This document shows positions 2,011 to 16,859 of a stretch of 16,917 bases of DNA, piece by piece (within the stretch, counting starts at the first letter, position 1; every line of letters starts with the position of its first letter). The notes below the pieces were generated by a model that was not told where the DNA came from, did no database searches, and was given only the letters and a program-made list of their open reading frames with translations. A program made the translations under genes and the position numbers. This DNA comes from Acidobacteriota bacterium (GTDB lineage Bacteria > Acidobacteriota > Terriglobia > Bryobacterales > Bryobacteraceae), in the NCBI GenBank assembly GCA_947505565.1, contig CANNLB010000004.1:1-16917 (forward strand), given 5' to 3'.

Positions 2011-2880
2011 GGGGTCTCCTGCTCGACGTATCCACTACGGTCAGAAAAAGCCACAAGAACTGGATTTCGCAAAATCGTCTTTTTGAATTCGCACCCCCAT
2101 AGCCAACCGCCGGATTTACGACGGGAAAAAACCCGCGTTCACGACTGACTGCAACCTCGGAGACCTCATCTATTTCCGCGTCTTCATCGAGAACATCCGC
2201 CCCACGGCGATGGCTCCGTGATTGCCGGATATGGACGTGAAGGACATCGCGCTGAGCATCGCACAACGAACTAAACGAACTATAAGAAGTTGACCCAATT
2301 CTCGAGCCGGGCCGACAACATGGAATGGACCACCTGGCGCGGATGTATCCTCCAGAGCTCCGACGCCGAGGTCACAAGCGATCAAGGCGGCGAGCTGTTC
2401 CGTGAATTCCTGGCGCGGGCAACACAAGAAGGGCTGGATCGTCTCAGGCAAGAACAAGCCCATGACGACCGGCGACGTGGTGGCGGCGGGAGAGGTGACC
2501 ATGAACGATATCCCGAGTGTGATCAGGGCCGGTTACCCGCTGCTCTCCAGCCCCCACAAAGCGGCGCGGAAGGATGCGGCGCTGGAAGGTCAACTTTTAC
2601 GTACGCCCTATCGTCCTGGAGACCAACCGACTACAAGCCCGCCACGGTGCTGCTGACGAGCAAGGCAAGGACGATCTACCGGCATCCGGTGCCTGGGATC
2701 ATCACCCGTCGCATGATGGAAGCGGTGGTCCATTCGAAAAACACCGAATATTGCTAGGATCAGGGCGACCAGTTTTCGGAGGTTCTCGAGGGATACAGCT
2801 GCGCCAGTGGCAAGTTTACCGATGCTGAGCGAACCTTCCATTTCATGCCCTGCGCGTGATGTGTCGAAATAGCGTTTGGC
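2011..2880. other. Intergenic stretch with broken, unassigned coding-like segments
   Basis: No intact gene is supported here. Several plus-strand pieces look like former protein sequence in different frames: about 2102-2221 (ending in LIYFRVFIENIRPTAMAP and a stop); about 2372-2420, running into WIVSGKNKPMTTGDVVAAGE and then VTMNDIPSVIRAGYPLLSSP (about 2423-2600); then NFYVRPIVLE; then TVLLTSKARTIYRHPVPGII (about 2642-2757). Neighbouring pieces join only across frameshifts and stops, as expected for a decayed gene. I do not recognise the family and assign no function. The first codons of the next transcription unit's longest frame (2856-2924) also lie here but are not favoured as its start. 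Confidence 0.35.
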
Positions 2881-2888
2881 GGGTGCCC

Positions 2889-2894
2889 TTGACA
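2889..2894 (+). promoter_or_regulatory. Consensus -35 box before the DUF1549/DUF1501 operon
   Basis: TTGACA, a perfect sigma-70 -35 hexamer, lies 30 bp before the chosen start codon at 2925. The matching -10 is poor: AACATT at 2913-2918 with an 18-bp spacer is the best fit, and it lies inside the palindrome at 2908-2923. If this promoter is used, transcription would begin at about the start codon. Confidence 0.45.
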
Positions 2895-2907
2895 CCACCG
2901 GAGAGTC

Positions 2908-2923
2908 GTGAAAACATTTTCAC
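2908..2923. promoter_or_regulatory. LacI-family-type operator palindrome
   Basis: GTGAAAACATTTTCAC is a perfect 7-bp inverted repeat (GTGAAAA/TTTTCAC) around a 2-bp centre. Its inner 14 bp, TGAAAACATTTTCA, differ at one central base from the form TGAAAACGTTTTCA recognised by many LacI/CcpA-family proteins. It covers the presumed -10 region 1 bp before the first start codon of the operon, the classical place for a repressor site. The broken lacI-family gene at the end of the same gene row (6534) is the obvious former partner. Sequence and position are direct observations; binding is inference. Confidence 0.6.
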
Positions 2924-2924
2924 A

Positions 2925-5105
2925 ATGTCGATCCGGCCAGTCCTTCTCGTATCCGCCTTTACCCTTCTGCCCTTGTTCGCCGAGAGCGCCCCGAAGTTCA
3001 ACGCAATCCAGAAGAAATGGTGGGCGATCCAACCAGTGGTCGCGGTCGCTCCACCGGCGGTTGACGGCGTCGGCCAGAAGTGGGTTCGCAACGAGATCGA
3101 CCACTTCATTTACGACAAGCTGAAGGCCAAGAACTTGGCACCTGCGCCGCTGGCCAGCCGCGACGTGTTTCTGCGCCGGGTCACGCTCGACCTAACGGGC
3201 CTGCCACCCACGCCGGAAGAAGCGCAGGCATTCCTGAACGACTCGAAGCCCGGAGCGGAAGAGCGCCTGGTGGACCGTCTGCTGGCGAACCCCCGCTACG
3301 GGGAACGTTGGGGCCGCCATTGGCTCGACGTCGTGCGCTACGCGGATTCCGATGGGTTCAAGCAGGATGACACCCGCCCGAATATGTGGCGCTATCGCGA
3401 TTGGGTCATCCACAGCTGGAACGAGGACAAGCCGTTCAACCGCTTCATCAAGGAACAAATCGCCGCCGATGAGCTCTACCCCGGTGACCTGAAGGCCCTT
3501 CCTGGCCTCGGCTATCTACGGCTATTCGAAGACGAGTTCAACCAAGCCAATATTCAACTGCGCCGGCAAGAGCTACTCAACGACGTCACCGACAACACGG
3601 CCTTCGCGTTCATGGGCGTCACGCTGGGTTGCGCTCGGTGTCACGACCACAAGTTCGACCCCCTCCTGCACAAAGACTACTACCGCATGCAGGCCTTCTT
3701 CGCCAATATGAAGATCGACGACGAGTCGACCACGGCCACTCCCCAGCAGATCGCCGAATACCAGGCCCAAATGGCGAAGTACAAGGCGGCGGCCAAGCCG
3801 GTTCTCGATAAGCTGGAGGCCTTCCTGGCGGTACCCCGCGCGGCATACCGGAAGGAATACACAGAGCGCTTCCCGCCGGAAGTGCAGACCGTTCTCGGCA
3901 AGCCCGCCCAGCAGCGCGACCCCCTCGATTGGCAGATCTATCACAAGGCGATCACGCAGGTGGACGTCACCGACGCGGAAGTCATCAGCAAGCGCGGTAA
4001 CGCCGCGACCAAAGCCAAGTACAAGGCGCTGTTGGCCGAACTCGACGCCTTCAAGCCGCTGCTACCGAAGCCGCTCCCCGTCGTTCAGATCATGCGGGAC
4101 CAAGCCGCGACCTCCCCGGCCACCTACATCCTCAAGGCTGGCTCGCTTTACTCCCCGCTTGACGAAGTTGCTCCCGGTGGACTCAGCATTCTCGACCCCG
4201 CCCCGGCGGCGATTCAGCCGCTGCCCGAACTCAACTCCAGCGGCCGTCGCGCCGCGCTTGCGAACATTTTGGCCGACGCGAAAAACCCGTTGACGACGCG
4301 GGTGATCGTCAACCGAATTTGGCAGTATCACTTTGGCAAAGGCATCGCCGGAACTCCGAATGATTTTGGCTTAATGGGGGAGCGCCCCAGCCATCGGGAA
4401 CTGCTCGACTGGCTCACGGCTACCTTCACGAATGCCGATGGCTGGAGCATCAAGACGCTCCATAAGCGTATCGTCCTGAGCGCGACCTACGGCCAAGCGT
4501 CTGACTACCGGGAGGATGCGGCCGCCATCGACAGCGAGAACAAGTTGCTCTGGCGCTATCCCCGTCGGCGGCTGGAGTCGGAAGCGATTCGGGATTCGAT
4601 GCTGGCTGTCTCCGGCCTTCTCGACCGGACGATGGGCGGTCCCGGCGTGTTCCCCAAGGTGCCGGAAGGGACCGAGATTCAAGAAGGGCGCCATTGGCGC
4701 AAGTCCACCGGCGACGCCGATGAGTACCGCGCCAGCGTCTACATCTTCGCGCGCCGCCTCGTTCGATATCCCATGCTGCAGAGCTTCGATACCCCACTCG
4801 CGATTGAGAGCTGCGGCCGCCGTCAGGAGACAGTCACAGCGGACCAAGCACTAGAGCTGATGAACGGGGAAGCGAGCGCAAACTTCGCCCGGGCCTTGGG
4901 CCAGCGCGTCGCCAACGACTCCGGCCAATCGCCGGCCGGCCTCGTGGAACGCGCGTTCCGGCTGACGCTCGGCCGGGCTCCTTCCGCGGCTGAACTCGAA
5001 CGAAGCCAAGCCTTCCTCGCCAAGCAGGCGCAGCTCGGCCCGGCCGCGCTCCACGATCTCTGCCTCGCGCTGCTGAGCTCCAGCGAATTCCTTTACATCG
5101 ACTAA
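2925..5105 (+). CDS. Secreted DUF1549/DUF1553 (PSCyt2/PSD1) protein
   Basis: A 726-aa exported protein of the family best known from Planctomycetes, Verrucomicrobia and Acidobacteria; its biochemical role is not established. MSIRPVLLVSAFTLLPLFAESA forms a signal peptide. DUF1549 covers about residues 55-260, with RRVTLDLTGLPPTPEE, GERWGRHWLDVVRYADSDG and a CxxCH sequence (CARCH, residues 236-240) in GVTLGCARCHDHKFDPL. DUF1553 covers about 410-710, with NPLTTRVIVNRIWQYHFGKG, FGLMGERPSHRELLDWL and RRLESEAIRDSML. The N-terminal cytochrome-c-like PSCyt1 domain seen in many relatives is absent. I start at ATG 2925 because it opens the signal peptide; the frame is open from 2856 but those 23 residues look non-coding. 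There is no good Shine-Dalgarno, so a leaderless transcript is possible. A DUF1501 gene follows 19 bp later, the usual partner. Confidence 0.9.
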   Translation: MSIRPVLLVSAFTLLPLFAESAPKFNAIQKKWWAIQPVVAVAPPAVDGVGQKWVRNEIDHFIYDKLKAKNLAPAPLASRDVFLRRVTLDLTGLPPTPEEAQAFLNDSKPGAEERLVDRLLANPRYGERWGRHWLDVVRYADSDGFKQDDTRPNMWRYRDWVIHSWNEDKPFNRFIKEQIAADELYPGDLKALPGLGYLRLFEDEFNQANIQLRRQELLNDVTDNTAFAFMGVTLGCARCHDHKFDPLLHKDYYRMQAFFANMKIDDESTTATPQQIAEYQAQMAKYKAAAKPVLDKLEAFLAVPRAAYRKEYTERFPPEVQTVLGKPAQQRDPLDWQIYHKAITQVDVTDAEVISKRGNAATKAKYKALLAELDAFKPLLPKPLPVVQIMRDQAATSPATYILKAGSLYSPLDEVAPGGLSILDPAPAAIQPLPELNSSGRRAALANILADAKNPLTTRVIVNRIWQYHFGKGIAGTPNDFGLMGERPSHRELLDWLTATFTNADGWSIKTLHKRIVLSATYGQASDYREDAAAIDSENKLLWRYPRRRLESEAIRDSMLAVSGLLDRTMGGPGVFPKVPEGTEIQEGRHWRKSTGDADEYRASVYIFARRLVRYPMLQSFDTPLAIESCGRRQETVTADQALELMNGEASANFARALGQRVANDSGQSPAGLVERAFRLTLGRAPSAAELERSQAFLAKQAQLGPAALHDLCLALLSSSEFLYID

Positions 5106-5120
5106 GGTCTATAGGTCTAT
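5105..5120 (+). repeat. 8-bp tandem duplication in the ribosome-binding region of the DUF1501 gene
   Basis: AGGTCTAT occurs twice in direct succession (5105-5112 and 5113-5120), starting on the last base of the preceding stop codon and ending 4 bp before the ATG at 5125. The second AGG lies 9 nt before that ATG and can serve as a weak Shine-Dalgarno sequence. Confidence 0.7.
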
Positions 5121-5124
5121 ACCG

Positions 5125-6534
5125 ATGAATCAACACACTACCCGTCGTGCCCTTCTTCGTGGCGCCGGCAGCGGCCTCGGGGCGATGGCCATGGCGGCCC
5201 TGCTCGCCGAGCAGTCGCCGGCGGCGACCGTCCACGATCCTACCGTCCCGCGTCAGCCCCACCATAAGCCCAAAGCTAAGTCGGTGATCTTCCTCTTCAT
5301 GGAAGGTGGACCGAGCCACATCGACCTCTTCGACCCGAAGCCGAAGCTGAACGAAATGAGCGGCCAGCCGATGCCGGCCAGTTTCGGTCGCCCGATCACC
5401 GCCATGGGCACCGCCGGCAACACGTTGATGGGCAGCCCGCGGAAATGGGCCCAGCATGGAAAAAACGGCTTGTGGGTGAGCGAACTGTATCCGCATGTGG
5501 CGAAGCATGCCGACAAGCTCGCCGTACTTCGCTCCTGCCAGTGCGATGGCTTGAACCACGCCGGAGGCGTGAGCCAGATGAACACCGGAGACATTCTCTC
5601 CGGCCGCCCCAGCCTCGGCGCTTGGGTCAACTACGGCCTCGGTTCGGCGAATAAGAATCTGCCGGCTTTCGTCAGCATGATCGACGAGCGGGAACCCTTT
5701 GGCAATGCCAAGAATTGGGGCTCCGGCTTCTTGCCCGCTTCCTATCAGGGCACCCTGTTTCGCCAAGGTCCGAATCCGATTTTGAACACCAAGCTTCCGG
5801 CGGGCCAAGATGACGAGCGGCAACGGGCGCGCCTTGAATTGCTGGAAGCCCAGAATCGAGACTACTCCAAAGGCCGGGAAGACGACACGAGTCTGGACGC
5901 GCGAATCCGCAGCTTTGAGCTCGCTTACGCGCTGCAAAAGTCGGGCCCCGAAGCGGTGGATTTGTCCAAGGAAACCGACGAAACGAAGGCGCTCTATGGC
6001 CTTGATCGCCCGGAAACGGCCGTCTTTGGCCGCAACTGCCTGCTCGCCCGTCGCCTCGTCGAACGCGGAGTTCGGTTCGTGGAACTCTACTGCGGCTCCG
6101 GCTCCGGCTGGGACGCGCACACAAACCTGGAAGGCAATCATGCCAAGTGGTGCAAGGCCTCCGATAAACCGGTCGCCGGGCTGATTGAAGACCTTGCCCG
6201 TCGCGGCATGTTGGACGATACGTTGGTGGTTTGGGGCGGTGAGTTTGGCCGGACCCCGTTCAATGAGAAGGGCGATGGCCGCGACCATAATCCCTGGGGC
6301 TTCACAATGTTCTTCACGGGCGGCGGCGTACGCGGCGGCCAGACGATCGGCGCCACGGACGAAATCGGCCTGCGAGCGATCCAGCGTCCGGCTCATGTCC
6401 ACGATATTCACGCTTCCATTCTCTGGCTCCTTGGCCTGAACCATTTAAAGCTCACCTACCAACACCATGGCCGCGCCGAACGACCCACCATCGTCGCCGG
6501 TGAGCACATGGTAAGAGAACTCTGGGAAGGGTAG
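5125..6534 (+). CDS. DUF1501 domain protein, Tat-exported
   Basis: 469 aa, typical for the family (PF07394), which has the alkaline-phosphatase/sulfatase fold. The substrate is unknown. The N-terminus MNQHTTRRALLRGAGSGLGA carries a twin-arginine signal with a hydrophobic stretch to about residue 34. Family landmarks in order are SVIFLFMEGGPSHIDLFDPK (about 53-72), the metal-site region GWDAHTNLEGNHAKW (about 328-342), DDTLVVWGGEFGRTP (about 364-378) and GRDHNPWGFTMFFTGGGVRG (about 384-403). The histidine and aspartate residues expected for metal binding are all there. The gene follows the DUF1549/DUF1553 gene by 19 bp; such pairs are very often neighbours and may act together at the cell surface. 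Its TAG stop overlaps the GTG of the broken lacI gene, so the original operon had three genes. No damage is visible. Confidence 0.92.
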   Translation: MNQHTTRRALLRGAGSGLGAMAMAALLAEQSPAATVHDPTVPRQPHHKPKAKSVIFLFMEGGPSHIDLFDPKPKLNEMSGQPMPASFGRPITAMGTAGNTLMGSPRKWAQHGKNGLWVSELYPHVAKHADKLAVLRSCQCDGLNHAGGVSQMNTGDILSGRPSLGAWVNYGLGSANKNLPAFVSMIDEREPFGNAKNWGSGFLPASYQGTLFRQGPNPILNTKLPAGQDDERQRARLELLEAQNRDYSKGREDDTSLDARIRSFELAYALQKSGPEAVDLSKETDETKALYGLDRPETAVFGRNCLLARRLVERGVRFVELYCGSGSGWDAHTNLEGNHAKWCKASDKPVAGLIEDLARRGMLDDTLVVWGGEFGRTPFNEKGDGRDHNPWGFTMFFTGGGVRGGQTIGATDEIGLRAIQRPAHVHDIHASILWLLGLNHLKLTYQHHGRAERPTIVAGEHMVRELWEG

Positions 6535-6888: not shown

Positions 6889-7983
6889 CAATATGTCCCG
6901 AGCGTCGACGCGGCCAGCGAGTGCAAGTTGCAGACCAACGTGTTTGACTCCGAATATGACCGCTTCACCGGGGGTGTGCGGAACGCCGCGATCAAGAGCG
7001 GCATGTACTCGTTCCAATGCATCCTGTTCAACTTCACGCGGAACTGCGCGGAGGTCGCGGCGGGGCGCCGTTGACGATCCCTAAGATCTACGAGCAAAAA
7101 TCGGACGTTCTGCTTTTTCAACGACGAGGGCCCTCGCGAAGGGGTCCCGCGAGCGAACCTCGGCGCCCCCCAGAAATTGACCACCTCTGCTCGAATAGAC
7201 TGGACCAGATCACAAACTGATCATGCCGCGTGGCATGCCGACGGGCGGGACCTTCCTCATCCGTGCCGCAGGCGCGTGTATCGTAGATTAGGTTTACCGC
7301 TCGGTCTGGCCGAGCGCCACGAGCCCATGCTCGTCGGGCAGGCAGCGCCGTCGGGGCCGGTTGGTGGTAAAGTTTTGGCGAACAGGGCTGGTCAATTCGT
7401 CGCAAGTGCCGAAGGCGAACGTCAACACCGCACCGACTGGGCTGGGACATACCGGTGACTGCGGCGCTTCGCTGGTTCGTAGCGGTACCAGCATTCTTCC
7501 TGGCAACATTTTCGACCCCGCCTCGACCCGAGCAACCGGAGCCCCCCCCGTCCTGGATCGATTCGATCGCCCGCCAGCTGGTAGCGCGGTATCCGCTGCG
7601 CAACGCTCCGCGCGACGCCGTCACGGGGGCGGCCAATGAGCTACTTTCTTCCCAAGATTCGGACGTCGACAACGGCTGCGTCTGGAAGATCGACCGCCGC
7701 TTCAGCGGCCGACCCGCCGTAGTTTTCCGCTACTCGTGGTGCGAGTTTTGGGGTGCACCATTTGGACCGCGATCTCGCTCGGATGAACATTGGTTACGAG
7801 TCGCAAAGAACGAGGACGAGAAGCCCCGTGCTGGAGAAGACATCGGAGAAGGGCCTCCGCTACCCGACCGCTCTGCCTCTGCGGAACCTCTCCGAATGCT
7901 CGCGATGGCCCCAGTTCGCTGGCCTTCCAGGCGGTCGCCGAGCCCGGTCGAACGAAACCGCGCAGAAGGTGGAGAAACGCTAA
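6889..7983 (+). pseudogene. Oar-like TonB-dependent receptor, broken plug and early-barrel remnant
   Basis: Directly after the LacI fragment, and in frame with it, the sequence becomes QYVPSVDAASECKLQTNVFD and DRFTGGVRNAAIKSG, then LFNFTRN, the plug signature of Oar-type receptors (QYVPSVDAVSEFK.QTN.FD..YGR.TGG..N...KSGTN.FHGSL). The rest is scattered over frames: LTIPKIYEQKSDVLLF (about 7070-7120), FNDEGPREGVPRANLG (about 7118-7165), GNIFDPASTRATG (about 7500-7545), DSIARQLVARYPLRNAPRDA with VTGAAN (about 7560-7635), KIDRRFSG and VVFRYSW (about 7686-7740), and LRYPTALPLRNLSE to SNETAQKVEK, ending at TAA 7981-7983. At least four frameshifts and an internal deletion are needed to join these. 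The N-terminal domain and most of the barrel are gone. The identification comes from the order of recognisable pieces. Confidence 0.8.
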
Positions 7984-9317
7984 CGCTCTTGCCGTTTTTT
8001 CTTCCGGTTTTCTTCGCGGCCAGCATGGCGGCCGGTACCATCGCCGGTATCCAGAATCCCTCCCGCCGGGTTCAACCGGTCAAGCGCCGCCTGCAGGCGG
8101 CGCCGGGCCGAAGTCGCGGCCGGACTCGCAGAGCCCGGAGGAATGACCGGCTCTTCGAACGGGGCCTTGCTCATGTCGAACAGGTCACCCGCTTGATTAA
8201 GCTTGAACTTCGCCTCGCGGACATACCACTGGCGCGCGAGTTGAATGAAAACCCATTCGCGGGGATTGCCCTTCTTCCCCTGTAGTTGCGGCACGAAGCT
8301 GCGTCCGTCGATCGGCGAGGCCGACTGCGGTTTTGCACCGGCCAGTTCTGCGAAGGTCGGATGCAGGTCGGTTGAGTCCATCAGTTCGGCCGTCACCTTG
8401 CCAGCTGGCGTACGGCCAGGCCAATTCAAAATCAAGGGAACGTTGCCCCCCCCCTCCAGCATGGAGCCTTTCTCCCCCGCTAGGCGCTTGCCCCGTACGG
8501 TGGAGATATCGGCGTAATTATTGCCGGTGCCGTTATCGCCGAAGAAGACAATCAGCGTGTTTTCCCGCAGTTTCAAGCGGTCGAGTTCGTCCACCACCCG
8601 GCCGACCAGCTTGTCCATATAGCGAATGTTGTCCGCGTACGCATCCTGGACGCCGGGCGCGCTATCCGGGGTCGGCAGGATCTCGGCGTGGACGTGTGAC
8701 AGGGAGTAGTAGGCGAAAAATGGTTTGTTGCGGTGTCGGTTAAGGAAGTCCACTAGGTAGCGGTGCATTAAGTACGGGAGGTATTCATGATCTCCGAGCT
8801 TCACCTTTTCGCCGTTGACGGTATAGACCTTGGCTTTGTCCTGCGTGTTCCAATAGGCACCGCTGCCGTTGAACTTCAGATGTTCGTCGAAGCCGAATTC
8901 GGCGGGGCCGAGGGGAAGCTGGCCCCACTTGCCGATCATGGCCGAGGTGTAGCCCGCCTGCTTAAGCAGCTTGGGGGTCATCGTCTCCACTGACGGCTTC
9001 ATTTGGCCAGTAGCGTCCTGATTGGTCGCTCCCGTGCGGAAAGCGTAGCGTCCGGTGAGAATCAGGGCCCGGGATGGTCCGCACAGCGGCGCTGTGTAGG
9101 CGTTCGTGTAGCGGGTGCCGCCGGCTGCGAGCCCGTCGATTCGCGGAGTCTGGAACTTGTCCGAGCCGTAGCAACTTAGGCCGTTAATGCCCAAATCGTC
9201 AGCGAGGATAAACAGGATGTTGGGCTTCCGGCTACTCGCGGTGGGCGATTGGCCCCAGCCAGCCGCGTTGGCCGCGGTCATCCATCCAGCCGCTTTCAGT
9301 AACTCACGTCGATTCAT
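7980..9317 (-). CDS. Secreted arylsulfatase-type sulfatase (formylglycine-dependent)
   Basis: 445 aa, sulfatase superfamily (PF00884). It hydrolyses a sulfate ester; the actual substrate cannot be told, though its neighbours suggest a sulfated glycan. The N-terminus MNRRELLKAAGWMTAANAAG is a Tat-like signal. Active-site features are KPNILFILADDLG (metal aspartates 40 and 41), LCGPSRALILTGR with Cys79 in the C-x-P-S-R motif that is converted to formylglycine, MIGKWG (Lys130), SHVH (His208/210), FFGDNGTGN (Asp261, Asn262) and GEKGSMLEGG (Lys283). The C-terminal 45 residues are basic and low in complexity. No clear Shine-Dalgarno precedes the ATG at 9317. A 29-bp element shared with the receptor operon lies 47 bp upstream. 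The regulator gene ends 72 bp upstream on the same strand. The stop overlaps the end of the receptor remnant tail to tail. No sulfatase-activating enzyme is encoded in the window. Confidence 0.93.
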   Translation of the reverse strand: MNRRELLKAAGWMTAANAAGWGQSPTASSRKPNILFILADDLGINGLSCYGSDKFQTPRIDGLAAGGTRYTNAYTAPLCGPSRALILTGRYAFRTGATNQDATGQMKPSVETMTPKLLKQAGYTSAMIGKWGQLPLGPAEFGFDEHLKFNGSGAYWNTQDKAKVYTVNGEKVKLGDHEYLPYLMHRYLVDFLNRHRNKPFFAYYSLSHVHAEILPTPDSAPGVQDAYADNIRYMDKLVGRVVDELDRLKLRENTLIVFFGDNGTGNNYADISTVRGKRLAGEKGSMLEGGGNVPLILNWPGRTPAGKVTAELMDSTDLHPTFAELAGAKPQSASPIDGRSFVPQLQGKKGNPREWVFIQLARQWYVREAKFKLNQAGDLFDMSKAPFEEPVIPPGSASPAATSARRRLQAALDRLNPAGGILDTGDGTGRHAGREENRKKKRQER

Positions 9318-9364
9318 GCTCTAGGCATACCAGTTGTCTCGCCACCATGGAAAGTAGCCGTAGA

Positions 9365-9393
9365 GTATCGCAACCGTTGCTGCAACGGGTTAC
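9365..9393 (-). promoter_or_regulatory. Shared 29-bp regulatory element, copy A (sulfatase promoter)
   Basis: Read on the minus strand it begins GTAAC and contains GTTGCAGCAACGGTTGCGA, made of three 5-bp half-sites (GTTGC, GCAAC, GTTGC) separated by single bases. It matches copy B (10712-10740) at 25 of 29 positions and ends 47 bp before the sulfatase ATG. It also covers the stop codon of the regulator gene (9390-9392). Similarity to copy B continues on the gene side: TACTTTCCATG here, CACTTTTATG there. Confidence 0.7.
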
Positions 9394-10685
9394 TTCTCTA
9401 AGACATAGTGACTGGCATAGCTGCACGAGAGGGGCAGGCTGTCTTGGGCGGTGCAGCGGACCACGAGTTGGTAGGCCTTGGGGAAGGTCGATAGCCCATC
9501 CTGCCGGAGACGATTTTTCAAGTCCGCCAGGAGTTCGGGCGAAGTGAAGAACTCGGCGGCACCTTGAATCCCAACCTGCGAAACGCCGGATACAATCAAT
9601 GTGCGGCGCGGCTGGCCCGGGGTGCCATCGGAGGGCAGAACGGTCAACAGACCATAGACCTGCGCCGGGTCGCCGGGTCGGCCCTCGTGTCGCGAGAAAG
9701 CGGGCGGGTCCGAAGCGGGCTTTTGGCGGTCTCGGATCACCAGACGATTGGTCGCTGGATCCTGCGCCACGGTCAGACGAGCCCGGCTCAGAAGCTGAGC
9801 GGCGGCGAACGAGGTAATGGGGTCGCCAAACAGGATCACGTTGCGGTTGCGGAAGCTGGCCAAAGGCGCGGACCGTTCGGGCAAGATTTGAGATTGCGCG
9901 CCAAGGGCGTGGAGGGTGGATGAGACCGCCGCAATGCCGCCGACTACTCCCAGGGTGGCGACATTGGGAGCAGGGCGCATGGTAAGCGCGGAGCCATCGC
10001 GCAAAGGATTTGTCTTCCGATAGAGTCCCTCGATTTCGGGAGGTGCCGGAAACGACGGCAGGTCGCTGTCAGGGGAAAATCCGCCCGGGCGGACCAGCAT
10101 ATGAAAGTTGGAAGCGACGCAAATCAGGATGTTCCCCTCTGGCGTCGCCAGGGGTCCCCATGCTTCGTGGAGGATGGCGGCAGCGGCGTTCGCCGCCGGA
10201 CTAGTGGACCAAAGCAGGCGCATGGCCAGCGCACCGACAAGGAAGCCGATTCCGGCGGCCCATGGGACCGCGGCAAGAGCCCGCCGGGGGGGCGACGCGG
10301 CGGCCGCCGCGTCGCTCACCAAGCCGGCGATCACGGCGGGTGCGCGATATCGGAAGACTGGGACATACGATCCCTTCGGCAGGTCGATCACAATCTCGGT
10401 TGCGGCGAGTTCGCCCGCATATGCTTCTTCGAGCTTCTGCCGGAGCTCGAACGCCCGGCGCCGGACCGATGAATCCGCCGTGGGGGAGTACGAAGTGGGC
10501 CGACCCAGGGCTTCCACCCCGATCGAATATTCCTTAATTTCGCCCCCGCGACCAGCGATCTCGAGCTCGCACACGTACCGCAGGAAATTCTTCAACTGTT
10601 CGCTGCGGGCGAAAGCCTGACTCTCCAGCACACGGCGCAGCGCCTGTTCCCGATCCTCACGCGCTGGTACGATCGAGTTGCTCAT
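9390..10685 (-). CDS. Membrane-anchored winged-helix regulator (ToxR/CadC-like layout)
   Basis: 431 aa from the ATG at 10685. Residues about 12-112 resemble an OmpR/ToxR-type winged helix: SEQLKNFLRYVCELEI, KEYSIGVEALGRP, DSSVRRRAFELRQKLEEAYA and the wing-like IDLPKGSYVPVFRY (compare VDVHIRRLRKKLE...GVGY in response regulators). One transmembrane helix follows at about 138-158 (AAVPWAAGIGFLVGALAMRLLW), then an extracytoplasmic domain of about 270 residues that I do not recognise, with RNVILFGDPIT and RTLIVSGVSQVGIQGAAEFF. This is the layout of a one-component sensor that binds DNA from the membrane. Proteins with this N-domain are common in Acidobacteria. The frame is open to 10751, but those extra 22 codons would overlap the shared element, so I use the inner ATG; its Shine-Dalgarno (ACAGG) is weak. 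It lies between the two copies of the 29-bp element and is the best candidate to bind them. Confidence 0.75.
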   Translation of the reverse strand: MSNSIVPAREDREQALRRVLESQAFARSEQLKNFLRYVCELEIAGRGGEIKEYSIGVEALGRPTSYSPTADSSVRRRAFELRQKLEEAYAGELAATEIVIDLPKGSYVPVFRYRAPAVIAGLVSDAAAAASPPRRALAAVPWAAGIGFLVGALAMRLLWSTSPAANAAAAILHEAWGPLATPEGNILICVASNFHMLVRPGGFSPDSDLPSFPAPPEIEGLYRKTNPLRDGSALTMRPAPNVATLGVVGGIAAVSSTLHALGAQSQILPERSAPLASFRNRNVILFGDPITSFAAAQLLSRARLTVAQDPATNRLVIRDRQKPASDPPAFSRHEGRPGDPAQVYGLLTVLPSDGTPGQPRRTLIVSGVSQVGIQGAAEFFTSPELLADLKNRLRQDGLSTFPKAYQLVVRCTAQDSLPLSCSYASHYVLEK

Positions 10686-10788
10686 CCTGTCTAAGAAGGA
10701 TACAGGAACCGGTAACAGGTTGCAGCAACCGTTGCGACACCGAACAACCACTTTTATGTCCCGCGCCGCGGTGTTAAAAATATTATTA
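10686..10788. promoter_or_regulatory. Divergent promoter region between the regulator and the receptor operon
   Basis: This 103-bp gap must hold both divergent promoters. It contains copy B of the shared element. On the plus strand TTGCGA (10732-10737), at the gene-side edge of the element, could be a -35 with TATGTC (10755-10760) as a poor -10 at a 17-bp spacer, giving a short leader to ATG 10789. The last 20 bases before that ATG are A/T-rich without a Shine-Dalgarno. Confidence 0.5.
10712..10740 (+). promoter_or_regulatory. Shared 29-bp regulatory element, copy B (receptor operon promoter)
   Basis: Read on the plus strand it begins GTAACAG and contains GTTGCAGCAACCGTTGCGA, with three 5-bp half-sites alternating in orientation. 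GTTGC recurs directly after 12 bp, a spacing near one helical turn. It lies 48 bp before the receptor ATG at 10789 and 26 bp before the regulator ATG at 10685. It is the inverted counterpart of copy A (9365-9393), so each copy points the same way relative to the gene it precedes. Confidence 0.7.
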
Positions 10789-13700
10789 ATGATGAAGTGT
10801 CAGGTGGGTTGGGCGGTCTTGGTAGCGATGCTCGTTGCGGCCGGGCTCCGCGCGCAGGAGTCCCGTGGCGTGATTGCCGGCCGGGCTACGGATGCGAGCG
10901 ATGCGGGAGTCGTCGGTGCCAGCATCCGAGCCGTGAGTGTGGATACAGGAATTGCGACAACGGCGACTTCCGGTGAAGGCGGCGGATTCCGCGTTCCTTT
11001 TTTGATTCCAGGTCTGTATCGGGTTACCGCGGAGTTCGCGGGCTTCAAAAAAATCTCGATGGAAAAAGTGGAGGTCCGCGTGGGCGAAACCTTGGACCTG
11101 CTGATGCGGATGGAGTTGGGCAACGTTGCCGAAACGGTGGAGGTGAGCGGTACCGCGCCGCTCCTCGAGACCGGCACCGCGTCGATGGGTACTTTCATGG
11201 ATTCCCGACGGCTGCAGGAGTTGCCGCAGCGGGGCGGCAATCCAATGGAGTTGGCGCGCCTATCGCCACAGGTGGTCAATCTGACGAATCTGCGGGCGTT
11301 GAAGGCGGCCTCCCCGAGCGGCACCTCGCAGATGGCGGTGGCGGGTGGGCCAAGATTCAGCACGGAATTTCAAATCGACGGCATCAGCAATACTACGGCG
11401 GACCTGGGCGACGGCCGGATACGCGTGGCGTTCATTCCACCTTCTAGCGCCGTATCGGAGTTCCGAATGGAGGTTTCGCCTTACGACGCCACGTTTGGCC
11501 ATACCCCCGGGGCAACGGTGAACATCAGCACGCGCAGCGGCACCAATCAGATCCACGGCGACCTGCGCTACTGGTTCCGCAACTCGGCGCTCGATGCCCC
11601 CAATTGGTTTGAAAATCGGAATGGCACCAAGCCCGCAGTCTATCAGGATAACCGCTACGGGGCTTCAGCCGGCGGACCCGGATGGATCCCCAAGCTCTAC
11701 GATGGCCGCAATCGCACCTTTTGGTTCTATGCCTACGAAGGCAATCAGTGGGGTCGGCCGACCTCTTCCACCAACACCGTGCCCACGATCGCGCAACGGA
11801 CGGGCGACTTTTCTGCCCTGCTGAGTATTCCCAACGGCAGCCGGTATCAAATCTTCGACCCTTTTTCGACGCGTACCGCGCCAAGTGGCCGCTTTCAACG
11901 CAATCCGCTGGGGGGAAACATCATCCCGCGCAGCCGACTCGACGCAGTCGGGTTAAACCTCGTGACTCTCTACCCGGTACCCAATCAGCCGGGGCGCAAC
12001 GATGGTGCCAACAATCACTTCTACTCCGACGTTCGTAAGCAGGAGTACAACACGCAGTTCGGCCGCCTCGACCACCAGATCCGGGAAGGGCACCGCCTTT
12101 TCTTCCGCTTGCACGACTACGACTGGATCAGCGGGCAGGACCGCTATGGGCTCCCAGTCTCGCGTTTCAATACCCGTTCCGGAAGACGCGGGCTGGCTTT
12201 GGATGATGTGCTGATCCTGAGTCCGACGATGGTGCTGAATCTGCGCTATGGCCTGTCCTACGGCGACATGGGCGAAGCCCGTCAGACAAAAGGGACGGAC
12301 CTCACCACGCTGGGCCTCTCCCGCGCGCTGGCCAGCCTAGTGGATCCAAGCCTGTCAACCGTGCCGCGCGTCCGCGCCGGAGCCTACTCCCCGCTGGCCG
12401 AGTGGAGTAATGGGGACGGTGCCAACAGCACGATCACACACACCGCACAGGCAAATTTCACCAATACCCGCGGTGCCCATACGTTGCGTTATGGCTTGGA
12501 CGCCAGGCTCTACCGCGGCTTTGGCACGCGCACGCCCCTTGCCAATTCCCCTGATCTGAATTTCTCGAACACCTTCACGCGCGGTCCGCTCGATAACGCC
12601 GCCCCCGCCGCTATCGGCCAGGAACTCGCCTCCATGCTCTTTGGCGTTCCCGACGGGCTCATGGAGCGCACGGCGACCTCGGCCTTTCAGGACCAATACC
12701 TGGCGCCCTTCCTCCAGGATGATTGGCGCGTCAACTCCCGGCTCACACTGAACCTTGGGCTGCGGTATGAATATGAGAGTCCGCTGACCGAACGCTTCGA
12801 CCGGCTGGTGGCCGGCTACGATGCCACCGTGCCCAACCCCGTGGACGCCCCGGCCCGCGCCGTCTACGCGTTGAATCCGATTGCAGAGATTGCACCGGCG
12901 GACTTCCGGTCGATGGGCGGCCTGCGCTTCGTGGCACGCGGTGGGAATGCCCGGAGCCCGTTTCGAGGAGAGAAAAATAATGTGCTGGTTCGCGCGGGCC
13001 TGGCCTACAAGCTGGCTCAAAATCTGGTGGTCCGCGCCGGCTACGGCACTTACTACGACAGCATTGGCACCTTCCGGACCATCCCGCAGCAGACCGGTTT
13101 CAGCCAGGCCACTCCCATCCAGGCCTCGCTCGACAATGGGCTGACGTTCGTTGCTACCAACGCGAACCCTTTTCCCCAAGGTTTGATTCCCGTGCAAGGA
13201 GCGGCGGCTGGCTTGGCGACGAGTCTAGGCCAAGGCTTTTCGTTCTACGATCCGAACCTAAAGCAGGGCTATTCCCAGCGCTGGTCGTTCAACCTGCAAC
13301 ACATGTTGCCCGGCCAAGTTATGGTGGACGCCGCCTATGTGGCCAATCGCGGCACTCGGCTCGCTATTTCCCGGGACCTCAATTCGATCCCGAACCAATA
13401 TCTGAGCCGCGCCGGCAATCGGGACGCGGCGCTCATCGGCTCGCTCTCCCAACAAATTCCGAATCCGTATTTCGGCTTGGCTCCGTCGTATCCGCGCACG
13501 ATCACCCGCGGCAATCTGCTCCGGCCGTATCCCCAGTTTGGGAACTTGAGCGCGGTGGTTCCGGACGGATACTCCTGGTACCATTCGCTACAGTTGCGTG
13601 CCGAACGGCGCATGCGCAACGGCCTCAGCTTGCAGGCTTCTTATGTTTGGTCAAAGTTCATGGAGGCGATCGAGTACCTCAATCCGGCCGACGAGCAACC

Positions 13701-14256
13701 GTATGAGGTGATCGCCGACAATGACCGCCCGCACCGAATTTCCATGAGTGGCATTTGGGAAATTCCGGTGGGACGCAGACGTCGTTTCGGCGGGTCGATT
13801 CCCCAGGCGGCCGACCTCCTGGCCGGGGGCTGGCAGTTAAATGGCGTTGTGATTGTTCAATCCGGTCCGCCGCTGGGTTTTGGCAATTCGATCTTCAATG
13901 GCGACATCAAGGCGATTCCGCTGCAAGGAAGCGCGCGCAGTGTGGATCGCTGGTTTGCCACCGAAGGCTTTGCCCGCGATGCCAGCTTGCAACTGCAGTT
14001 GAATCGGCAACAGCTTCCCCTGCGCTTCAGCGGCATCCGAGGCGACGGGCAGCGCGCGTGGGACTGGTCGTTGTTCAAAACATTTCTAGTCACCGAGCGG
14101 TGGAAGATACAGTTCCGCGCTGAGGTCTACAACGCGTTCAATCAGGCAAGCTTCAACGCGCCGAATCGTAACCCCACCAGCGGCGCGTTCGCTACCGTGA
14201 CCGATACGCAGTCGGAGGCGCGGAACTGGCAGTTCTCGCTTTTTGTGAAATTCTAA
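10789..14256 (+). CDS. Oar-like TonB-dependent outer-membrane receptor
   Basis: 1155 aa, intact. It should import oligosaccharides or a similar large ligand through the outer membrane, driven by TonB/ExbBD (not in the window). Signal peptide MMKCQVGWAVLVAMLVAAGL ends at about 23. A carboxypeptidase-regulatory-like domain follows (about 25-110: GVIAGRATDASDAGVVGASI, FRVPFLIPGLYRVTAEFAGF), then the plug (FQIDGISNTTADLGDGR, SPYDATFGHTPGATVNISTR, SGTNQIHGDLRYWFRNSALD, IPKLYDGRNRTFWFYAYEG) and a long barrel (FLQDDWRVNSRLTLNLGLRY) ending FSLFVKF, with the terminal phenylalanine usual for barrel assembly. The frame is open from 10678, and ATG 10756 also gives a possible N-terminus. I choose 10789 because it opens a clean signal peptide and lies at the same distance from the 29-bp element as the sulfatase start. 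There is no SusD gene, as usual for this group. The stop overlaps the next ATG (TAATG). Confidence 0.92.
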   Translation: MMKCQVGWAVLVAMLVAAGLRAQESRGVIAGRATDASDAGVVGASIRAVSVDTGIATTATSGEGGGFRVPFLIPGLYRVTAEFAGFKKISMEKVEVRVGETLDLLMRMELGNVAETVEVSGTAPLLETGTASMGTFMDSRRLQELPQRGGNPMELARLSPQVVNLTNLRALKAASPSGTSQMAVAGGPRFSTEFQIDGISNTTADLGDGRIRVAFIPPSSAVSEFRMEVSPYDATFGHTPGATVNISTRSGTNQIHGDLRYWFRNSALDAPNWFENRNGTKPAVYQDNRYGASAGGPGWIPKLYDGRNRTFWFYAYEGNQWGRPTSSTNTVPTIAQRTGDFSALLSIPNGSRYQIFDPFSTRTAPSGRFQRNPLGGNIIPRSRLDAVGLNLVTLYPVPNQPGRNDGANNHFYSDVRKQEYNTQFGRLDHQIREGHRLFFRLHDYDWISGQDRYGLPVSRFNTRSGRRGLALDDVLILSPTMVLNLRYGLSYGDMGEARQTKGTDLTTLGLSRALASLVDPSLSTVPRVRAGAYSPLAEWSNGDGANSTITHTAQANFTNTRGAHTLRYGLDARLYRGFGTRTPLANSPDLNFSNTFTRGPLDNAAPAAIGQELASMLFGVPDGLMERTATSAFQDQYLAPFLQDDWRVNSRLTLNLGLRYEYESPLTERFDRLVAGYDATVPNPVDAPARAVYALNPIAEIAPADFRSMGGLRFVARGGNARSPFRGEKNNVLVRAGLAYKLAQNLVVRAGYGTYYDSIGTFRTIPQQTGFSQATPIQASLDNGLTFVATNANPFPQGLIPVQGAAAGLATSLGQGFSFYDPNLKQGYSQRWSFNLQHMLPGQVMVDAAYVANRGTRLAISRDLNSIPNQYLSRAGNRDAALIGSLSQQIPNPYFGLAPSYPRTITRGNLLRPYPQFGNLSAVVPDGYSWYHSLQLRAERRMRNGLSLQASYVWSKFMEAIEYLNPADEQPYEVIADNDRPHRISMSGIWEIPVGRRRRFGGSIPQAADLLAGGWQLNGVVIVQSGPPLGFGNSIFNGDIKAIPLQGSARSVDRWFATEGFARDASLQLQLNRQQLPLRFSGIRGDGQRAWDWSLFKTFLVTERWKIQFRAEVYNAFNQASFNAPNRNPTSGAFATVTDTQSEARNWQFSLFVKF

Positions 14257-15413
14257 TGAGCATGAAGCGCAGAGTGTTTCTCGGGGCGGTGGCCGCGGCT
14301 GGTCCAGGGCGGGCGGCGGCGAAGATTGACGTGGCCTCGTTCGATCGAAGTCGTGTACTGGCGGACGCCCGACAGTTTCTGAATCGTCAGCCCGCCACCC
14401 CAGTGGCGTCGCGTTCTCCGCGCAGCGCCGGCGGTCCCCATGACTTTTTCTCTGAAGGCGACTATTGGTGGCCTGATCCAAACAATCCCGCGGCGCCCTA
14501 CGTGCGTCGCGACGGGATGACCAATCCGGCGAACTTTGTCGACCATCGCAACTATCTGATGCGGCTAAGCGTGGAGGTCCCGGCGCTGGCGGCAGCCTGG
14601 AAGTTGACTCGGGAGCGGCGCTACGCCGAGCACGCGGCTGCCCACCTCCGGGCGTGGTTTGTTGCCCCAGCCACCCGGATGAATCCGGACCTGCGGTATG
14701 CGCAGGCGATCCAAGGCCGCTCCACCGGGCGCGGCACCGGCATCATCGATACGATCCATTTGGTAGAGGTAGCGCGGGCGATCCCGCTGGTCGCCGAGGC
14801 CGGGATGCTGCGCCAGGACGAGTTTACCCGAGTGAAAAGTTGGTTTGCCGCCTACACCAACTGGATGACGACCAGCAAAAACGGCATCGAGGAGCGCGAC
14901 GCGAAGAACAATCACGCCACCTGCTGGACGATGCAGGTGGCCGCGTTCGCCGCCTTCACGGGCGATACCAAACAGGTCGCCGATTGTGCCGAGCGGTTTC
15001 GTACATTGCTGGTGCCTCACCAGATCGCGCCCGATGGTAGCCAACCGCTTGAAGTGAACCGTACCAAGCCCTATGGCTACTGCCTGTTCAATCTCGACGC
15101 GCTCGCGACGTTGTGCCAGATTGTCTCCGCCAACGGGCATGACCTCTGGAGCTTCCAGACCAAAGACGGCCGTGGCGTCCGTAACGCGGTCGAACAGATG
15201 TACCCCTTCATCGCAGACAAGAAAAAATGGCCGCATCCGTCCGACGTGATGTACTTCGACGAGTGGCCGATGCGCCAAGCGGCGTTATTCTTTGCAGGCC
15301 TCGCCTACGGACGCCAGGACTACCTCGACGCCTGGAAGAAGCTGCCCGCCAGTTCGAACGTTGAGGAAGTCGTACGTAACTTCTTCATCCGCCAACCCGT
15401 TTTGTGGACATAA
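14256..15413 (+). CDS. Alginate-lyase-family protein (PF05426, PL5-like), exported
   Basis: 385 aa. The family cleaves uronic-acid polysaccharides by beta-elimination in an alpha/alpha barrel; the substrate here is not known. MSMKRRVFLGAVAAAG is a Tat-like signal. Family landmarks are FFSEGDYWWPDPNNPAAPYV RR (about 64-85), MNPDLRYAQAIQGRSTGRGT (142-161), GIIDTIHLVEVARAIPL, WFAAYTNWMTTSKNGIEE (196-213), NNHATCWTMQVAAFAAFTGD (218-237, with the Asn-His pair at 219-220 expected at the active site) and LEVNRTKPYGYCLFNLDAL (265-283, with the Arg and Tyr region expected to act in elimination). Many proteins with this domain act on heparin-like or plant uronates rather than alginate, so the name should be read as a fold family. 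The ATG shares its A with the receptor stop (TAATG), and the sulfatase starts 10 bp after the stop. These three genes are surely one transcript. Confidence 0.88.
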   Translation: MSMKRRVFLGAVAAAGPGRAAAKIDVASFDRSRVLADARQFLNRQPATPVASRSPRSAGGPHDFFSEGDYWWPDPNNPAAPYVRRDGMTNPANFVDHRNYLMRLSVEVPALAAAWKLTRERRYAEHAAAHLRAWFVAPATRMNPDLRYAQAIQGRSTGRGTGIIDTIHLVEVARAIPLVAEAGMLRQDEFTRVKSWFAAYTNWMTTSKNGIEERDAKNNHATCWTMQVAAFAAFTGDTKQVADCAERFRTLLVPHQIAPDGSQPLEVNRTKPYGYCLFNLDALATLCQIVSANGHDLWSFQTKDGRGVRNAVEQMYPFIADKKKWPHPSDVMYFDEWPMRQAALFFAGLAYGRQDYLDAWKKLPASSNVEEVVRNFFIRQPVLWT

Positions 15414-15422
15414 GGAAACCTA

Positions 15423-16859
15423 ATGATGAATTCAATCAGCCGTCGACAACTATTGGGCCAATTCGCCATGGGTCTGGCACTGCCCGCCCAACAGAATGGC
15501 AGGCGGCCAAATGTGCTCTTTTTCGCCGTCGATGACCTGCGGCCGGAACTCGGTTGCTACGGCGTGCGGGGGATTCAGAGCCCGAACATCGATCGGCTGG
15601 CCAAGCAGAGCATGGTGTTTGATCGCGCCTATGTGCAACAGGCCGTCTGCTCGCCTTCGCGCACCAGCATTATGACCGGCGCGCGCCCGGATTCGACGCA
15701 GGTATGGGACCTGGTAACCCACTTCCGCAAGGCCATGCCAGATGTGGTGACGCTACCGCAGCACTTCAAGCAAAATGGCTACTTCGCGCAGGGCATAGGC
15801 AAAATCTTCCATCCCGGCTATGACGACCAACGCTCTTGGTCCGTGCCGTGGCAGACGCCCAAAGCACCCACCTACGCCAACACGAAGAGCGCACCGCAGA
15901 AGGATGAAGACAAACCAAAGCAAAAGGATGGTCCGGCGTTTGAAGCCGCCGATGTGCCGGACAATTTCTATAAGGATGGGCAGGTGGCGGACCTGGCCGT
16001 CAAAACGCTCCGTGGGCTAAAGAACAAGGCCGAGCCCTTCTTCCTCGCCGTCGGGTTCGCCAAACCACATCTACCTTTTGTCTCGCCGAAGAAGTATTGG
16101 GACCTATACGACGCGGCGAAGATCCCGCTGGCCCCCAATCCGTACCGCCCTAAGGGCGCGCCCGAGTACGCGCTCACCAACAGCGGTGAGTTGCGGAACT
16201 ATCCCGGCGTGTCCAACGATGGTCCGGTATCGCCGGAACTGGCGCGCAAGCTCAAGCATGGCTACTACGCGGCGGTCAGCTACACGGACGCGCAGATCGG
16301 CAAGGTGCTCGACGAACTCGAGCGCCAGGGCCTGCGGCAAAACACCGTCATCGTGCTATGGGGAGACCACGGCTGGAAGCTTGGAGAGCATGGCGAATGG
16401 TGCAAACACAGCAATGTGGAGAACGATACGAATGCTCCGTTGCTCCTGTCGGCTCCGAGCATGAAGGCGGCGGGCCAGCACAGCCGGGCGCTCGTAGAGT
16501 TCGTTGATATTTATCCGACCCTGGCGGAACTGGCGGGTCTGCCGCTGCCGCCGCACCTGGAGGGCTTGAGCTTCAAGCCGCTGCTCGACAATCCGGGCTT
16601 GGCGTGGAAACGAGCAGCGTTCAGCCAATATCCGCGAGGCCAAAAGCTGATGGGCTACTCGATGCGCACCGACCGCTACCGCCTCACCGTATGGGTCGGC
16701 CGCAATGACCATTCGCGGATTGAAGCCACCGAACTCTACGATCATCAAACCGATCCGCAGGAGAATACGAACATCGCCAGCCTTCCCGCCCACGCAAAAT
16801 TGGTGGAAGCGTTGATGGCTCAGTGGCGCCAAGGTTGGCGGGGAGCACGGCCGCTGTAA
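15423..16859 (+). CDS. Iduronate-2-sulfatase-like sulfatase, exported
   Basis: 478 aa, formylglycine-dependent sulfatase nearest to iduronate-2-sulfatases, which remove the 2-O-sulfate from uronic-acid residues of glycosaminoglycan-type chains. MMNSISRRQLLGQFAMGLAL is a twin-arginine-like signal. Catalytic features are RPNVLFFAVDDLRPELGCYG (Asp37, Asp38), AVCSPSRTSIMTGARPDSTQ with Cys76 for formylglycine, GIGKIFHPG (Lys127, His130), GFAKPHLPFVSPKKYWDLYD (His216), and VLWGDHGWKLGEHGEWCKHS (Asp315, His316, Lys319, Lys328), followed by ELYDHQTDPQENTN near the C-terminus. A lysine-rich loop occurs at about 154-170. AAGGA, beginning just inside the previous stop, serves as Shine-Dalgarno; either of the tandem ATGs at 15423 or 15426 could be used. 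A sulfatase of this type next to a uronate lyase suggests a sulfated uronic-acid glycan as substrate, which is inference. Confidence 0.93.
   Translation: MMNSISRRQLLGQFAMGLALPAQQNGRRPNVLFFAVDDLRPELGCYGVRGIQSPNIDRLAKQSMVFDRAYVQQAVCSPSRTSIMTGARPDSTQVWDLVTHFRKAMPDVVTLPQHFKQNGYFAQGIGKIFHPGYDDQRSWSVPWQTPKAPTYANTKSAPQKDEDKPKQKDGPAFEAADVPDNFYKDGQVADLAVKTLRGLKNKAEPFFLAVGFAKPHLPFVSPKKYWDLYDAAKIPLAPNPYRPKGAPEYALTNSGELRNYPGVSNDGPVSPELARKLKHGYYAAVSYTDAQIGKVLDELERQGLRQNTVIVLWGDHGWKLGEHGEWCKHSNVENDTNAPLLLSAPSMKAAGQHSRALVEFVDIYPTLAELAGLPLPPHLEGLSFKPLLDNPGLAWKRAAFSQYPRGQKLMGYSMRTDRYRLTVWVGRNDHSRIEATELYDHQTDPQENTNIASLPAHAKLVEALMAQWRQGWRGARPL

Follow-up and report, generated by a model that had tools for sequence, protein, structure and literature searches.

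A duplicated candidate operator flanking the gene of a predicted membrane-bound regulator in a TonB receptor and sulfatase locus of Bryobacteraceae

At one locus of a Bryobacteraceae genome, a lone sulfatase gene and a divergently oriented receptor operon are separated by the gene of a predicted membrane-bound regulator, and ahead of each lies a copy of the same 29-bp element. What is this element for, and does the regulator encoded between the copies act on it? The locus is contained in a stretch of 16,917 nucleotides, referred to here as the window (contig CANNLB010000004.1 of GenBank assembly GCA_947505565.1), and the assembly to which it belongs, G000, comprises 3.53 Mb in 640 contigs and is 58.9% complete. 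We refer to the regulator as REG and to the two sulfatases as S1 and S2 (Table 1). Judging by the lyase and the pair of sulfatases encoded there, the locus presumably acts on a sulfated polysaccharide that includes uronic acid. Elsewhere in the window, positions 2856–6534 contain a PSCyt2/PSD1 (DUF1549/DUF1553) gene and, after it, a DUF1501 gene, and a 451-residue reading frame at 162–1517 has no Pfam or NCBIfam match.

Table 1 Features of the locus and of a paralogous junction (window positions unless a contig is named)
Feature	Position	Strand	Basis or remark
S1 sulfatase (PF00884), Cys-type motif CGPSR	7980..9317	-	Pfam
Proposed S1 promoter: CTTTCC (9354-9349), 19-nt spacer, TATGCC (9329-9324)	9324..9354	-	by analogy with paralog intergenic regions
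Candidate operator copy A, ahead of S1	9365..9393	-	conserved before S1 in G004, G002, G011
REG, membrane-bound regulator gene, 431 residues (membrane placement predicted)	9390..10685	-	no Pfam or NCBIfam family
Candidate operator copy B, between REG and receptor	10712..10740	+	conserved before receptor in G004, G002, G006, G258
Proposed receptor promoter: CTTTTA (10751-10756), 18-nt spacer, TAAAAA (10775-10780)	10751..10780	+	by analogy with paralog intergenic regions
TonB-dependent receptor (PF25183, PF13620)	10789..14256	+	Pfam
Alginate-lyase-like protein (PF05426)	14256..15413	+	Pfam; directly after receptor
S2 sulfatase (PF00884, PF16347), Cys-type motif CSPSR	15423..16859	+	Pfam
Tandem palindromic candidate operator copies at the junction of a regulator paralog and a receptor (L100)	G000:C91:1562-1618		

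A duplicated element conserved at orthologous loci

The two copies, one read against the reverse complement of the other, are identical at 25 of 29 positions, exactly as the initial annotation had claimed. In 60 dinucleotide shuffles of the 1,471-nt region the best inverted 29-mer reaches at most 23 matches (mean 19.9), and shuffles of the two intergenic regions alone reach no more than 18 (300 shuffles); as the observed agreement exceeds both maxima and the element is kept by orthologs, chance duplication is rejected. Each copy is oriented towards its gene in the same way, with a gap of 47 bp to the S1 start codon (ATG 9317) and of 48 bp to that of the receptor (ATG 10789), as annotated, but the equality of the two gaps is not conserved: from core to ATG the distance varies between 41 and 84 bp across nine ortholog copies. 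Copy A, on the sulfatase side, shares the last four bases of the REG gene, including its stop codon, and copy B is separated from the ATG of REG by 26 bp.

Relatives of REG at 68–85% identity are present in G004, G002, G006 and G011 (the last partial), as identified by an ortholog search over 151 genomes, and scanning of contigs, together with a search for family members, added a further ortholog, at 59–61% identity, in G258. The element lies ahead of the receptor in all five loci in which that side is present (G000, G004, G002, G006 and G258), and ahead of S1 in all four in which S1 adjoins REG (G000, G004, G002 and G011). The flanks diverge between these loci; the element itself is kept in place. 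The sulfatase-side copy of G002 reads GCAACCGTTGCAGCAAC, which is the opposite phase.

Located differently are the S1 genes of two further arrangements. In G258, S1 follows the receptor by about 100 bp on the same strand, with one in-frame stop, and has no element copy upstream at up to three mismatches. The S1 relative of G006 is on another contig (G006:C331; L330, L335), split over two reading frames, and the element is absent from its upstream region as well as from that of a second S1 copy elsewhere in the G002 genome, so that remote S1 genes are rejected as regulon members. Given that the element is missing ahead of S1 in the receptor operon of G258 and ahead of the S1 genes lying apart from REG in G006 and G002, the second copy appears to accompany S1 where this gene forms its own transcription unit next to REG.

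The element is close to exclusive to this type of locus. Its core, GTTGC-N-GCAAC-N-GTTGC, has exact matches in the G000 assembly at these two copies only. Eight exact matches to GTTGCANCAACNGTTGC are found in 19 genomes of the genus, six of them at REG ortholog loci, and the remaining two (G001 and G014) fall inside long reading frames, of 543 codons and 340 codons; in G004, listed as 100% complete, the exact sites are its own two. With two exact copies in G000 and six of eight genus matches at REG loci, the element is not scattered over the genome.

Weaker matches carry little signal. At one mismatch the genus scan yields 36 matches and its reversed-pattern control 33; this is background level, and such sites are for this reason uninformative. 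Up to two mismatches give 28 sites in G000 and 58 in the reversed control; the 25 further sites with one or two mismatches do not exceed this control, and a wider regulon in G000 is rejected. By coordinates, mismatch site L006 lies about 300 bp ahead of a receptor, L014 near the first codons of a receptor, and L003 close to where a sulfatase-like gene ends.

The regulator, its family and their candidate operators

REG is composed of an N-terminal DNA-binding-like domain (approximately residues 1–115), a hydrophobic segment (approximately 137–155) and a C-terminal domain (approximately 175–431). Conserved along the N-terminal domain are, in this order, the patterns D-x-x-V-R, L-R-x-K-L and P-K-G-S-Y-V-P. 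REG has no Pfam match at E-values up to 1 and no NCBIfam match; Pfam reports no helix-turn-helix in it and contains no model for its N-terminal domain. The seven matches of G000 to Trans_reg_C (PF00486) do not include REG, and at E-values up to 10 Trans_reg_C is likewise absent from ten other proteins, of which two belong to the REG family and eight are broader relatives.

The N-terminal domain had been annotated as a winged helix. Its hhalign comparison with a profile of seven OmpR-type domains of the same genome (G000) gives a weak match, collinear over the helix and wing (score 19.7, P = 0.011, probability 3.9%), which stands above the controls: 60 column shuffles (maximum 16.1), reversed controls (10.4 and 11.0) and blocks of the C-terminal domain (maximum 16.3). 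This alignment weakly supports an OmpR/CadC-like winged helix, an assignment that stands in a weaker form than first stated, with Pfam giving no match.

In hydropathy profiles, 32 of 38 family members are above the threshold, two of these with a second peak, and six are below it. The C-terminal domain of REG has no convincing sequence match in the PDB. The N-terminal domain is also found at the start of proteins that match TPR models, in Alphaproteobacteria, Desulfobacterota and other groups (L149, L158, L168, L181, L206 and others), some of which have sub-threshold TolB-like, HilA or CadC matches; sequence sources often name them ‘adenylate cyclase’.

A total of 668 homologs of REG were found, and among the 120 matches listed none has a Pfam domain, those with a name being called ‘hypothetical protein’. 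One hundred regions around REG matches, picked out of a longer list on the basis of REG similarity, together with L146 and the window contain 93 full-length REG frames. Within 3 kb of the frame a receptor is present in 73 of the 93 cases (54 divergent, 18 co-directional downstream and 1 upstream), 60 of the 73 being within 700 bp, and some of the frames lacking one are explained by contig ends. The held-out set has a receptor within 3 kb in 30 of 36 cases, or 29 of 35 without the duplicate L273, which is on the same contig as L146 and was kept among the 36 held-out regulators and dropped from the 20 held-out upstream regions considered below. Estimated from the 67 matches to PF25183 (fragments included) in the 3.5 Mb of the 59%-complete G000, a random gene should adjoin such a receptor in a few per cent of cases. 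On one stretch (L086, G075:C115) are two REG paralogs and two receptors. No prior description of a receptor-linked regulator family in Acidobacteria was found in the open-access literature, and REG is apparently one example of a large, undescribed family of this kind.

Paralogs of REG have dyads of their own before their linked receptors, a relation that bears directly on the annotated pairing of element and regulator. Reading of the intergenic regions yielded a common pattern, in which alternating GTT/AAC half-sites are followed 9–10 bp past the last AAC by CTT or CTTG, and 17–19 nt further on by a TA-rich box. The form GTT N3-5 AAC N9-10 CTT, chosen after the first set had been viewed, occurs in 16 of 28 upstream regions of close members (100 shuffles: mean 0.24, maximum 2), these counts not being independent, as sequences within sets are related. 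It is found at 2 of 35 control receptors, a conservative control that includes at least one receptor beside a truncated regulator (L103). Shifted spacings of the pattern are found in none of the 28 close-member regions.

Among the held-out upstream regions the same form is present in 4 of 20 (200 shuffles: mean 0.15, maximum 2) and absent from 16, and the dyad AAC N0-1 GTT N3-5 AAC is present in 8 of 20 (mean 0.15, maximum 3). Distant members have the full form in 0 of 32 cases and are enriched only for GTT N3-5 AAC (17 of 32, shuffle maximum 12). The distance that recurs in close paralogs is the 9–10 bp between the last AAC half-site and the CTT box; the window conforms to this rule only by way of the degenerate half-site GTTGCGACACC, from which it is 10 nt on to CTT. 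A scan for consensus sigma-70 promoters finds none at either of the sites proposed in the window.

A second candidate operator belongs to another subfamily of REG, one member of which is on contig C91 of G000. Its sequence, GGAACNGTTCNGAACNGTTC, has eight distinct sites at up to one mismatch in the 19 genomes, and its reversed control has no site there; the candidate operator of the C91 paralog reads GGAACGGTTCGGAACCGTTC. Seven of the eight sites lie in regulator-receptor junctions, including the tandem pair on C91. The eighth, G002:C386 (L337), is ahead of a different receptor, on a 6.1-kb contig in which no REG was found, and has a layout like that of the REG-linked site of G002: the operator, then GATGCTTGCTC, then TAAGAT, the REG-linked site having TATGAT. 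Judged by its sequence, G002:C386 is an independent example of a putative operator copied to a second unit.

Residues 76–77 of REG covary with the base that follows GTT. In the 41 of 48 upstream regions with at least four half-sites, RR occurs with GTTG, RQ with GTTC and NR mostly with GTTT, TR and SR being mixed (permutation test: p = 0.0005 for 23 representatives and 0.009 for 15). Equally high scores are reached by C-terminal domain columns, so that descent alone could explain the covariation, and it is rejected as proof of binding.

Proposed mode of action

The initial annotation regarded S1 and the receptor operon as a regulon coordinated by REG. This interpretation holds in part: copies of the element are not dispersed over the genome, orthologous loci keep it at both positions and the paralogs have their own dyads, but the matching distance to the start codons is not a conserved property. 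The 29-bp element is, on these comparisons, very probably the operator of the REG encoded between its copies. Taken as a whole, the best explanation, which we consider likely, is that both copies are REG operators from which the membrane-bound regulator activates both units.

From comparative evidence we infer binding, sensing and activation as follows. REG would sit in the inner membrane, and its N-terminal domain, which is probably a winged helix of a divergent OmpR/CadC-like type, would bind the alternating GTT/AAC half-site array just upstream of weak −35 boxes. The outer domain would sense either the receptor's state or a product released by breakdown of a sulfated polysaccharide, and REG would then recruit RNA polymerase to the sulfatase gene and to the receptor-lyase-sulfatase operon. 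Owing to its short distance from the ATG of REG, copy B may also control transcription of REG itself.

Activation from just upstream of the −35 box is the most likely mode, and the main rival is repression, in which the element is still the operator of REG but binding blocks the receptor and sulfatase promoters until an inducer releases it. The comparative evidence for the pairing of REG and element is neutral on the sign of regulation, and the placement of copy B is suitable for blocking REG itself. We nevertheless consider repression unlikely: the element is just upstream of the proposed −35 boxes and not over the −10 box or start, an arrangement that recurs in close paralogs, and the proposed promoters depart strongly from consensus, which is common among activator-dependent promoters.

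It is considerably less probable that some other, unlinked transcription factor or sigma factor recognises the element and that the position of REG is coincidental. AAC-type motifs are known in the −35 region of many ECF promoters, which would suit such a factor, but exact matches of the element are at REG loci, bar the two inside long reading frames; the paralog subfamily has a different dyad that is confined, but for one receptor, to its own regulator-receptor junctions; and sigma and anti-sigma families are absent among the nine window proteins scanned by family-profile search.

The readings that dispense with a regulator, namely a structure at transcript level (terminator or attenuator) or a dispersed repeat, are barely credible and are rejected. 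The core is able to form a short hairpin, and one terminator-like match is at 9374–9388; yet the count of such matches (1) is no more than shuffles give (mean 1.4), no Rfam match reaches the gathering threshold, the assembly has two exact copies only, with mismatch sites below the reversed control, exact genus matches are mostly at REG loci, and orthologous places keep the element while their flanks diverge.

Relation to known systems

Beyond the proposed activation by REG at this locus, we suggest tentatively, with somewhat more doubt than confidence, that the regulators of Bryobacteraceae and related Acidobacteria include a membrane-bound family not recognised so far. Many of its members would each be paired with a single TonB receptor by a GTT/AAC dyad of their own, and residues 76–77 would read the base next to this dyad. 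Regulons would grow by copying of the dyad, as for the sulfatase described here and, independently, for a second receptor in G002, and TPR-linked regulators of Alphaproteobacteria and other phyla may use the same domain, to which sequence sources often give the label ‘adenylate cyclase’. Genomes of Acidobacteria contain many TonB receptors, as the PF25183 matches of G000 illustrate; short, private and recognisable operators would allow regulators to be assigned to receptors and polysaccharide genes by sequence, and the paralogous regulator-operator pairs would offer a natural system in which to follow the divergence of DNA specificity.

Polysaccharide utilization loci of Bacteroidota and ECF-sigma/anti-sigma receptor systems combine a locus-encoded regulator with a TonB receptor. 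The locus described here is similar to the Bacteroidota loci in its TonB receptor, lyase, sulfatases and locus-encoded regulator, and differs from both kinds of system in that the family-profile search of the nine window proteins found no SusD-like and no hybrid two-component family, in addition to the missing sigma and anti-sigma families.

Proteins of the OmpR type bind direct repeats in the vicinity of −35 boxes. With the OmpR/PhoB family (PF00486) REG shares the weak collinear profile match over helix and wing, but it has no receiver domain and no Pfam match, and the half-sites of its candidate operator alternate in orientation. The HilA/CadC-like TPR proteins are related through the N-terminal domain, which in Alphaproteobacteria and other phyla precedes TPR regions; the C-terminal parts of these relatives match HilA/EilA and CadC below curated cut-offs, whereas REG itself has no TPR match.

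CadC is a winged-helix protein with two head-to-head sites in the cadBA promoter and a preference for AT-rich DNA with the motif TTAxxxxT (PMC5430869). The candidate operators of REG are, in contrast, GTT/AAC arrays. REG also differs from ToxR/CadC-type regulators in an N-terminal domain undetected by Pfam and a C-terminal domain without PDB sequence relatives. What it has in common with them is the predicted overall plan, comprising an N-terminal DNA-binding-like domain, one hydrophobic segment and a C-terminal sensor-like domain, encoded by a gene that lies beside its (here presumed) targets.
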